Source: Dyella psychrodurans (GTDB lineage: Bacteria > Pseudomonadota > Gammaproteobacteria > Xanthomonadales > Rhodanobacteraceae). Taken from it: 64,000 nucleotides of DNA. The notes under the pieces are model-generated. The model was given only the letters and a program-made list of their open reading frames with translations. It was not told the DNA's origin and ran no database searches. Every line of letters begins with the position of its first letter. Position 1 is the first letter of the stretch. This document shows, one piece after another, positions 4,823 to 7,886 of this stretch. The stretch is from NCBI RefSeq assembly GCF_003363265.1, contig NZ_QRBF01000010.1, forward strand, positions 62,001-126,000, in the 5' to 3' direction. The translations under genes were made by a program, and so were the position numbers.

Positions 4823-6865
4823 TCAGCTCTTCTGCCCCAGACGGCTGATCCAGCGATACATCGCGAAAATGACCGCCGCAAAGGCGATGCCGCCGATCCA
4901 GATCGACGCGTTCTCGAAACTGTCGCCCACCAGCCCCAGCGGCGAAGATTTGCCGGAGAACACCACGATGGCAGCGACCACCACGCCGATGATGCTCTCG
5001 CCCACGATCATGCCCGAGGCCAGCAGCACGCCAAGCTGCTTGGTGGCCTCGGCCTTCGGCGTACGATCCGCGCGCTTATCGAAATACCAGCCGACGACGG
5101 CGCCCACGACAATCATCAGCGTGGTGGAAGTCGGCAGATAAATGCCCAATCCAACGGCCAGCGGCGGCATGCGCACCGACTTGGATGTGCGGGCGAGAAT
5201 TTCGTCCAGCACGATGATGCCCACGCCGATCAGCGCACCGATGCGTATCAGGCTCCAGTCGATGTTGTTCTGAATGACGCCTTGCGCCAACGCGGAAATC
5301 AGACCGGCCTGCGGCGCCGGCAACGCATGCGCCGGGTCGACGCCCGGCGCGCCGAGGAAGCCGTAAGCGTGATTGAGCAGATCCAGCACCGGCGGAATCA
5401 CGATCGCGCCGGCGATCACGCCGATTACCAACGCGACCTGCTGTCGCCACGGTGTGGCGTCCACCAGCTGGCCGGTCTTGAGATCCTGCAGATTGTTGTT
5501 CGCGATCGCAGCCACGGCGAACACCACCGAGGTGATAAATAGCGCAAACGCCACCAGTGCCTTGCCCGAGTCGGCGGGCAGATCCGACTTCACGCCCGCG
5601 ACAAGCAGCAATGCGGCGATGATCACCACGAGAATGCCGATACCCGAGAGCGGACTGTTGGAGGAGCCGATCAGTCCGGCCATGTAGCCGCACACCGTCG
5701 ACACCAGAAAGCTAAGAATCAGCACGAACAACACACCGCCGATCACCAGCAAAGTGGTGTGCGAACCCAGTCCGCTGACGACGCTGAAGTTGCCCAGCAA
5801 CCACGCAATGGGAAGCATGCAGACCAGCACGATCAGGCCGACGATGCCGATCGGCATGTCCTGCTCCGTGCGCGGCAGCGTGGCCGCCTTGCCTGCCTTG
5901 CGCACACGCGAAGCCGCCATTGCCGAGCTCAGGCCGCTGACGACCGGTTTGACCAGCTTGGCCAGCGTCCAGATCGCCGCCACACCGATGGTGCCCGCGC
6001 CAACGAAGCGAACGTAGTGACTCCACGCGCCTTGCGCGACATCCGAGACATCGCCCGTCGCAGGATGCAGCAACGTGAAATGCGGCACCGCCCAGCCCCA
6101 GCCGATCACCGCGCCGAGCAACATGGCGAGGCCCACCCAAAGACCCACCAGATGACCTACCGCGAACAAGGCAAACGACAGACTGAAGTCGTAACCGCTC
6201 GCCGAACCGCGATCGCCGATGCGGAAGTACTGCGCCACGTCGCTGGCGAAAATCTTCGTCTGCACGACGATGTAGAACACTGCGGCAACGACCGAGCCCA
6301 CCACCACCGCCATCAACCCGCTGGTGCCGCCTTCCACCGACGCGGCGCCCGACGCTTCGGCTGCTTCACCCGATCCCACCTTCAGCACTTCGGCACACGC
6401 CACGCCTTCGGGATACGGCAGATCGGAATCGGTGACCAGCGCACGGCGCAGCGGGATCGTGTACATCACGCCAAGAATGCCGCCCGACGCGCAGATCCCG
6501 AACGAGACCCAGAACGGAAACCCCGTCCACCAGCCCACCATGATCAGGCCCGGCATCACGAAGATGATCGACGACAGCGTGCCTGCTGCCGACGCAACGG
6601 TCTGCACGATGTTGTTTTCCTGGATCGTCGCGTTCTTCATCGCGCGCAGGATGGCCATCGAGATCACCGCGGCCGGAATCGACGTGGCGAAAGTCAGGCC
6701 GGCCTTCAGGCCGAAGAACACATTGGCCGCCGTGAACACCAGCGTGATCACGATGCCTATGATCAGGCCACGGATAGTGAGTTCGGCGCGCGGCGCGGCG
6801 CCGGGTCCAGGTACTGCATTCACGGGCGATCTCCCCAAACTGTCCAAAGGAATGCTCTGACTCAT
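4823..6865 (-). CDS. OPT-family oligopeptide transporter
   Basis: A 680-residue polytopic inner-membrane protein of the OPT (oligopeptide transporter) family. Family signatures include ANVFFGLKAGLTF in the first helices, NIVQTVASAAGT, GFPFWVSFG, SDLPYPEGVACAEVLK, and the distal NNLQDLKTGQLVDATPWRQQV. Bacterial members are thought to take up short peptides, or metal chelates in some lineages, using the proton gradient. It lies in a region rich in secreted peptidase and chitinase genes, consistent with peptide scavenging. The start (MSQSIP) has no clear Shine-Dalgarno sequence. Remarkably, the first codons form one arm of a perfect 24-bp inverted repeat whose other arm lies about 230 bp upstream in its own leader, so translation initiation could be blocked by base pairing in the mRNA. 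Confidence 0.88.
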   Translation of the reverse strand: MSQSIPLDSLGRSPVNAVPGPGAAPRAELTIRGLIIGIVITLVFTAANVFFGLKAGLTFATSIPAAVISMAILRAMKNATIQENNIVQTVASAAGTLSSIIFVMPGLIMVGWWTGFPFWVSFGICASGGILGVMYTIPLRRALVTDSDLPYPEGVACAEVLKVGSGEAAEASGAASVEGGTSGLMAVVVGSVVAAVFYIVVQTKIFASDVAQYFRIGDRGSASGYDFSLSFALFAVGHLVGLWVGLAMLLGAVIGWGWAVPHFTLLHPATGDVSDVAQGAWSHYVRFVGAGTIGVAAIWTLAKLVKPVVSGLSSAMAASRVRKAGKAATLPRTEQDMPIGIVGLIVLVCMLPIAWLLGNFSVVSGLGSHTTLLVIGGVLFVLILSFLVSTVCGYMAGLIGSSNSPLSGIGILVVIIAALLLVAGVKSDLPADSGKALVAFALFITSVVFAVAAIANNNLQDLKTGQLVDATPWRQQVALVIGVIAGAIVIPPVLDLLNHAYGFLGAPGVDPAHALPAPQAGLISALAQGVIQNNIDWSLIRIGALIGVGIIVLDEILARTSKSVRMPPLAVGLGIYLPTSTTLMIVVGAVVGWYFDKRADRTPKAEATKQLGVLLASGMIVGESIIGVVVAAIVVFSGKSSPLGLVGDSFENASIWIGGIAFAAVIFAMYRWISRLGQKS

Positions 6866-7117
6866 TTTGCATGGGCGGCATGATGCCCAGAAAGCCCGCA
6901 GGGTGTGTTGCGCGGCGCAGTGAAGACTGGCTGTCTTTTCAAGCCGCGCGGCACAGCATGCGGGCTTTCTGGACATCACCCTTCGGGCCAGTCCTGTCTG
7001 TCCGCATCCCTTCGGCCCATCGACTCAACAGACAGCCAGTCTGCCTTCGCCGATGGCCCTGCGGCCTGCGGACAGACAGGACTGGTGACGCCTATGCAAA
7101 ATGAGTCAGAGCATTCC
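6849..7117. repeat. Nested inverted-repeat element with two hairpins and complementary loops
   Basis: A 269-bp structure fills most of the leader of the OPT gene. Outer arms 6849-6872 and 7094-7117 are a perfect 24-bp inverted repeat; the left arm contains the OPT start codon and first codons. Inside are two long hairpins: arms 6887-6916/6943-6972 (26 of 30 paired, 14 perfect at the base) and 6988-7021/7052-7085 (about 28 of 34, 19 perfect at the base, 6988-7006 with 7067-7085). The loop of the first hairpin holds AGACTGGCTGTCT (6924-6936); the loop of the second holds its exact reverse complement (7030-7042). Two kissing hairpins closed by a long outer stem could therefore form in RNA or extruded DNA. 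No transposase and no target-site duplication are visible. Confidence 0.8.
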
Positions 7118-7197
7118 CTACAAGATAGCGTGGATCGCCGGATCGATGTTGACCCACCGCAGCAATGGCGCCCCATGCGCGGGGCGCCGGGAACCTG

Positions 7198-7722
7198 CTA
7201 GCGCTTGAGTTTTTGCAGATCGCCGCGCAGTTGGCTGGCGATATCGTCGGCGCTGTCGGACAGCAGCTTCGGCAATGCCTGCGCGTAGCCGCCGTCGCCC
7301 GAACCGCTGGTCACGGCGGTCGATACCTGCGCCTTGTAATCGTGGTTGGTGTCGAAGCCCTTGGACCAGAAGGCGCAGTGCAAGCCCAGGTCCATGGACA
7401 GGTTGCCTGGCGCCTTGTCCTCGTCAACGCGCAGCGTTGTCGTCAGCGCGGTGCAGGTCACCACCAGGTCCTGAAAATAATCCGATTGCAGCCGCGCCCC
7501 GAGCTGGGACTGGAAGGCTGCCGAAACACCCGGCGCAGGTTCCAGGGTCACTTTGTGATCGAGGCCGCGCACGTCGAGCTTGTCGGTGCCGCCGGCTACT
7601 GTCAGCCACGGCGCGCCACTCGGCTTCACCAAATCGCCAAGCGGCGCCTGGACCTGCACGTTCTGGCCGCCACACGCGCCAAGCAGCGCCGCGGCGGCGC
7701 CGACCATCAGAAAGCGTTTCAT
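7198..7722 (-). CDS. Predicted lipoprotein of unknown function
   Basis: A 174-residue protein with a strong ribosome binding site (GGGGGAG, 9 bases before the ATG). The N-terminus MKRFLMVGAAAALLGAC is a lipoprotein signal with the lipobox LGAC, so the mature protein starts at Cys17 and is membrane-anchored, probably in the outer membrane. The remainder is a soluble domain with two further Cys residues (VVTCTALT and LHCAFW), which could form a disulfide in the periplasm, and an Asp/Leu-rich C-terminus. I do not recognise the domain. It is divergent from the S10 peptidase gene and upstream of, on the same strand as, the OPT transporter. Confidence 0.75.
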   Translation of the reverse strand: MKRFLMVGAAAALLGACGGQNVQVQAPLGDLVKPSGAPWLTVAGGTDKLDVRGLDHKVTLEPAPGVSAAFQSQLGARLQSDYFQDLVVTCTALTTTLRVDEDKAPGNLSMDLGLHCAFWSKGFDTNHDYKAQVSTAVTSGSGDGGYAQALPKLLSDSADDIASQLRGDLQKLKR

Positions 7723-7886
7723 CGTTGAACTCCCCCTACAGACAATGCTGAATCTAATGCAGTGCAGCACGCCATTCAACGTTTGGCGGCGTTTGTTGCG
7801 ACGCAGGTCCGCACCATGCCTTTGGGCACAATGCACCGGGAGCTCGCTTGGTTAGTCTTGCGGATCGTATGTCCCGAGGAACCATC

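Follow-up and report, generated by a model that had tools for sequence, protein, structure and literature searches.

A dispersed palindromic repeat beside an OPT transporter gene in Dyella: a probable MITE with IS5-type ends whose stems evolve in mirror image

The closest described systems are the IS-derived MITEs of bacteria (among them RUP, Correia/NEMIS and ERIC), which according to their published descriptions resemble the element studied here in being short and non-coding, in having terminal inverted repeats and possibly a target duplication, and further in their extragenic position, strong fold and mobilisation in trans (PMC3733652, PMC2229807); MITEAba12 (PMC6382973) is a further MITE to be named for its likeness. 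The present arms differ from those of such MITEs in being ~33 bp long, copy-specific and mirror-matched, and in enclosing two more hairpins with inverted-copy tips. CIR repeats of Caulobacter and Brucella are similarly built of two long hairpin arms, a linker and a motif in the terminal loop, but the account in PMC2229807 lists them without terminal inverted repeats, whereas the present element has both hairpin arms inside an outer IS5-type stem. EFAR palindromic repeats of enterococci are likewise a complex palindromic family, classed with MITEs in PMC3733652, but belong to another host phylum. REP/BIME/REPIN elements share the inverted hairpins, the extragenic location and the compensatory changes; REPs are, however, given as 20-40 bp in PMC3733652 and are tied to RAYT, and no Y1_Tnp was found here. 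The closest described process is quasipalindrome template switching, in which arm-to-arm copying keeps stems perfect, as reported in work on rRNA genes and on yeast coding sequence (PMC8794818, PMC8604942); its extension to bacterial MITE arms that enclose ~200 bp is a proposal of this work. A literature search for published descriptions of such repeats in Dyella or its relatives returned none.

Based on the layout, the copies and the pattern of change within them, we propose that the element is a MITE, mobilised in trans by an IS5_4 transposase and kept symmetric by template switching, an explanation that we consider likely as a whole. The element occupies 6849..7117 of the window, the entire 64,000-nucleotide stretch under analysis, and is oriented on the + strand from hairpin 1 to hairpin 2, as delimited by complementarity search, repeat search and 14 empty orthologous sites. 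It measures 269 bp, and family members ~270-290 bp. The left outer arm (6849..6880, + strand) is mirrored by the right outer arm (7086..7117, - strand), with 32 nt paired at 94% and a 24-mer that is exact on both strands; the outer part is an IS5-type terminal inverted repeat with the family consensus GGGATGCTCTGA, from which the window copy departs at 1 of 12 positions. Hairpin 1 (6881..6978, + strand; stem 6881-6916/6943-6978, 36 nt, 86%) is the most widely shared module, with an apical motif found also in families with other arms, and its tip (6923..6937, + strand) carries the conserved loop motif CTGGCYG. A short linker, CCCTTCGGG (6979..6987, + strand), replaced in other copies by a longer CCCC...GGGG linker, leads to hairpin 2 (6988..7085, + strand; stem 6988-7022/7051-7085, 35 nt, 83%), detected by complementarity search, the tip of which (7029..7043, + strand) repeats that of hairpin 1 in inverted orientation. 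The perfect 24-bp arms, the two inner hairpins and the loop complementarity described by an earlier, sequence-only reading are thus all present, and the folding of both strands that it had suggested yields RNA structures far more stable than dinucleotide shuffles (z = -18.0 for the + strand and -17.0 for the - strand, with equally stable shuffles in 0 of 200).

That reading had also placed a kissing-loop contact between the two hairpins. The loops are indeed complementary (6924-6939/7027-7042, 16 nt, 94%), but covariation between them lends no support to a contact: both motifs were matched in 58 of 90 copies, in the combinations C/G (31), C/A (15), T/A (7) and T/G (5), with a Fisher p of 0.18. 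Both loop regions form small hairpins of their own, AGAC-TGGCT-GTCT and AGAC-AGCCA-GTCT, whose tips show a single palindromic motif in opposite orientations, so that their complementarity is automatic. The loop-loop match is therefore a by-product, less striking than first sight suggests. Apart from a 98-aa frame, the reading frames of at least 80 aa that touch the element reach into it from outside, and there is no transposase within. No promoter or terminator was detected by consensus scan, and Rfam returned 0 matches for the element at gathering score, the sub-threshold matches being to microRNA models only.

The OPT-family transporter gene (4823..6823, - strand; Pfam OPT) likely starts, by our own reading, at the GTG at 6823-6821, ~25 nt from the element, although the mechanically called OPT frame extends into it. 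On the other side lies an ORF of 212 aa (7198..7836, - strand) without Pfam match and with a provisional start codon; DNA similar to this upstream gene occupies the same place in 13 of 14 congeners. In the 14 congeners where the OPT 5' region was located, the element is absent from all, and the empty site reads TGTCCAGCTAACAAG with small variations, compared with TGTCCAAA-element-CTACAAG in the window. By this comparison the AA at 6847..6848 and the CTA at 7118..7120, neither assigned to a strand, are presumably the left and right remnants of a CTAA-type target, of which the window copy retains just these bases. Because all 14 alignable loci lack the element, we interpret it as a lineage-specific insertion rather than a conserved OPT leader, and it probably influences OPT only incidentally. 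One earlier option, a structured regulatory RNA in the OPT leader, is disfavoured by these empty loci, by the unrelated genes next to other copies and by the lack of an Rfam family.

A search of the element's own genome with a 311-bp query gave 41 matches, ~10 of them near-complete copies and the others fragments or hairpins self-matching in reverse. Extended to 61 genomes, the search proposed in the sequence-only reading found matches in 24, namely 15 of 16 in the genus (own included) and 9 of 21 in other genera of the family, with 0 of 24 in other bacterial families; at most 12 candidates per genome were scored, so that places are those among the matches listed. The copy-finding model was built from 4 sequences and used for locating copies only, and its own per-genome counts include reverse-strand hairpin self-matches. 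A DNA pattern scan of named genomes recovered 33 stretches, from Dyella, Rhodanobacter, Frateuria, Mizugakiibacter and two metagenome bins. Empty counterparts were identified for ~12 copies besides that of the window, and shared insertions are few, with four same-locus, same-orientation pairs among the loci fetched. The members of one of these pairs, L115 and L120, carry different arm types and therefore probably represent two events. A fifth shared locus pairs L080 with L009 and L011, which lie at the ends of contigs C10 and C16, respectively, overlap by 29 bases and look like parts of one copy. Recent activity is seen in a genome of another genus (G019), where 21 near-full copies of 95-100% identity represent a burst (L377-L381, L387-L396); none of 7 congeners searched carries any copy of this repeat. 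In plasmid and phage collections the window copy found no match; relatives matched a single plasmid record, of Xanthomonas sacchari, one of them at 71.9% across 79% of the query.

In further families the apex of hairpin 1 sits on other basal stems and other arms, including arms of type GGCCTGTTCGCACTATTTGCG at CTAG, arms starting GAGCCTG and arms starting GGCAACGCTGAATAA at TTAA; arms were located for 25 of the 27 loci in one set and outer arms for 17 of the 20 in another. The hairpin 1 tip motif is in this manner housed in at least four arm types. When 299 genomes of the order were scanned, its exact apical pattern turned up in 30, of which 25 belong to family f1 and 5 to f2, as against 0 of 299 for the reversed control.

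Of 90 copies, 13 have the same YTAR tetramer on both sides (TTAA in 8, CTAG in 5), the remaining 77 being without identical YTAR flanks, and YTAR stands at 53 of 180 ends; at control offsets of 20, 40 and 60 nt, identical flanks were found in 0 of 90 copies and YTAR at no more than 1 of 180 ends. Of 19 copies from the young burst, 18 have CTAG on either side, where it could be part of the ends themselves. IS copies of ~0.9-1.2 kb in a congener, G003, start and finish with GGATGCTCTGA beside YTAR sites (TTAG/CTAG-type), and two of its loci, L219 and L229, are full-length IS relatives with the same ends. Three transposases, in L216, L219 and L163, exceed the 140-bit cut-off of NCBIfam IS5_4 (NF033581), the three scores being 309, 279 and 147.9 bits. 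That of L163 is the sole PF01609 transposase found in the element's own genome and is broken; its IS copy starts with CTAA followed by GGATGCTCTGATCA, the family terminal sequence, and the commonest arm sequence shares 14 nt with it. An integrase-like reading frame, by our own reading, follows this broken transposase in the same stretch (L163:1300-2800, G000:C12).

Many copies, the lineage-specific insertion and the IS5-family-like termini and targets agree with the MITE-like element that the earlier reading had entertained as one option, and there is a strong case that the element is a dispersed non-autonomous repeat of the MITE type. Judged from these sequences, mobilisation by a candidate IS5_4 transposase is well supported: an IS5-family (NCBIfam IS5_4) enzyme would recognise the element ends in trans, and insertion would occur at CTAG/TTAA/YTAR-type targets, mostly upstream of genes. 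The transposase of the element's own genome is broken, and some of the same-genus frames that were compared are interrupted or split, which we count against an active mobiliser, and in G019 a search with a 16-mer end gave no end pair at full-length-IS spacing among the matches listed. The origin of the arms may be reflected in G003, where both arms of the MITE L347 are identical to the right end of the IS, GGATGCTCTGATTTATTCCACG, over 22 nt, and those of L312 and L351 follow it with one mismatch in one arm. The two ends of the G003 IS itself agree over the first 11 nt only. As the arms follow the IS right end on both sides while the IS ends differ, we infer that at the element's origin the sequence at one end of the IS was duplicated onto the opposite side, as this pattern suggests.

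How long stems remain perfectly paired is a question of two-step compensation versus one-step arm-to-arm copying, and the family, with three stems per copy acting as internal controls, offers a natural test of palindrome upkeep. It provides palindromes of differing age within one bacterial order, in the form of the young burst, the orthologous pairs and the scattered older copies. The 90 aligned copies display 84 different left 24-mers, and yet, over the first 24 positions, 42 of the 89 distinct arm pairs are free of mismatches and 74 contain at most one (3 of the 89 rows, in shifted register, were dropped from the tally). Of 2600 arm cells, 409 depart from the consensus pair on both sides yet remain Watson-Crick, and 88 are not Watson-Crick, these being cells and not independent events. 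Counted against the consensus structure, three orthologous insertions have accumulated 24 mirrored changes (arms 6, hairpin 1 7, hairpin 2 11), where ~2 would be expected by chance at their divergence according to our own rough estimate, and 21 changes that leave a wobble or mismatch (arms 6, hairpin 1 11, hairpin 2 4). In one of the orthologous pairs, L002/L084, even a single-base length change in a T run is mirrored. The young burst, sampled as 19 of the 21 copies, selected by hairpin tip and each 98-99.6% identical to the consensus, contains 15 distinct paired-site changes, all one-sided. Mutations thus arise on one side and become mirrored later, in place; because the orthologues carry double changes and the young copies one-sided ones only, symmetry is restored after insertion.

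Template switching, which is described as making and keeping stems (PMC8794818), is our preferred cause of this mirror symmetry. During replication the DNA would fold back and one side would be copied onto the other, as in quasipalindrome correction, and the outer arms and both hairpins would stay self-complementary through the mirroring of one-sided mutations. Selection for a DNA fold needed in transposition could contribute. The strongest competitor, less probable in our judgement but a serious one, attributes the symmetry to ordinary compensatory selection on a folded DNA, either a cruciform or a single-stranded hairpin, that the transposase needs. Two-step compensation expects just what the 19 young copies show, with 0 of 15 paired-site changes mirrored, and the wobble tolerated on one strand of hairpin 1 is in line with it too. 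It accounts less readily for scattered copies whose arms are symmetric though their sequence is evidently free to vary, for G·T and A·C being equally rare in the arms and for the mirrored T-run change, points that weigh against it without separating the two causes.

Whether the DNA or an RNA is constrained can be read from the pairs that are not Watson-Crick, since G·U on one strand is A·C on the other and the G·T:A·C ratio therefore tells the constrained strand. In Watson-Crick-majority columns this ratio is 35:37 in the arms, pointing to DNA, and 38:47 in hairpin 2, both without RNA strand signature. The compensatory changes between copies anticipated by the sequence-only reading are accordingly abundant, but in the arms they come without such a signature, which is a warning that DNA repeats, too, can acquire the mirror covariation that is commonly regarded as proving a functional RNA. 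Hairpin 1 deviates, with 100:17 in such columns (lower stem 37:11, upper stem 63:6), and is therefore subject to a strand-specific constraint that favours the + strand; the binomial p-values of this whole comparison treat copies as independent, although they are not. The excess is alike in every gene context (43:8, 33:4, 18:4 and 6:0) and recurs in a second arm family (101:30), so that it looks intrinsic to the element and not derived from local transcription. A tentative extension, which we regard as possible but rather unlikely, is that hairpin 1 is the true replicating unit, working from one strand in the form of single-stranded DNA or of RNA and residing in several transposon-end sets across the order, while template switching keeps turning the arms and hairpin 2 around it into mirror images. 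The tip motif in 30 of 299 genomes and at least four arm types, and the standing of hairpin 1 as the sole stem of three with strand-specific wobble, may be cited in its favour.

A strand preference in one hairpin also raises the question whether the downstream gene has in the element a structured regulatory RNA as part of its 5' leader, either a cis-acting leader or an mRNA-stability element. The directions of the genes flanking the first 90 copies, derived from a codon-score heuristic trained on this window, are ++ in 42, -+ in 31, -- in 13 and +- in 4, and a second sample of 38 copies, drawn once the bias had been predicted and from which 2 of 40 had been dropped as lacking arms, gave 18, 11, 7 and 2, respectively. 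Most copies hence precede genes, and the sense orientation relative to these genes is the commoner one: tandem pairs are in the downstream gene's sense 42 to 13 and then 18 to 7, pooled 60 to 20 (p = 8.6e-6), and divergent regions exceed convergent ones 42 to 6 when pooled. This bias and the far greater G·U tolerance of hairpin 1 on the + strand speak for a leader RNA. Nonetheless, we consider a leader function unlikely, as the copy in the window has the less common orientation, the orthologous OPT loci are empty, the hairpin 1 excess is independent of gene context and the outer-arm mismatches are strand-neutral. Moreover, the second arm family exhibits no orientation bias (7, 6, 4 and 3), albeit in a small sample of 20 copies read out of 25, the other 5 being without motif. 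Neighbouring genes are also unrelated, with 70 Pfam families of at most 2 members each to the right of the element (66 of 71 genes scanned), and a regulon was rejected on this basis. A nearer right-hand gene start in divergent pairs, seen in 22 of 31 cases in the first sample, was dropped after 6 of 11 in the second.

Two further origins are weaker still than a leader RNA. A REP/BIME/REPIN-type element with a RAYT (Y1) transposase as mover would share the inverted hairpin pair, the extragenic position and the many copies, and compensatory changes have been reported for REPINs too (PMC3116915), but it is very improbable given the ~270-290 bp length, the long terminal inverted repeats and the CTAG/TTAA targets; we rejected it as Y1_Tnp has 0 matches in this genome, while the control matched in 5 of 14 genomes. 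An assembly artefact, in the form of a collapsed or inverted repeat, could be suspected from matches at the very ends of contigs C5, C10, C11, C13 and C16, but we give it next to no credence: the same architecture recurs in many independently assembled genomes, including the single-contig genomes G003, G010 and G019, which makes the mis-assembled inversion named earlier as a possible refutation unlikely. In practical terms, contig ends of this draft coincide with these repeats, all five falling at or in them.

Variation in insertion and build was also observed among the copies. L092/L135, L121/L131 and L129/L136 occupy the same intergenic regions in different species, with differing insertion points and opposite orientations, hinting at insertion hot spots. 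EFAR repeats have a modular make-up, and some copies here look modular, L010, L013, L148, L149, L382 and L386 having an extra ~50-nt hairpin, CTTCCTCGCTCCTC...CCCCGCGTGCGG, inside hairpin 2 or the linker. In L144, L146, L147 and L161 of two congeners (G002, G012), hairpin 2 is swapped for another near-perfect stem of ~30 bp or more, the sequence of which varies from copy to copy.
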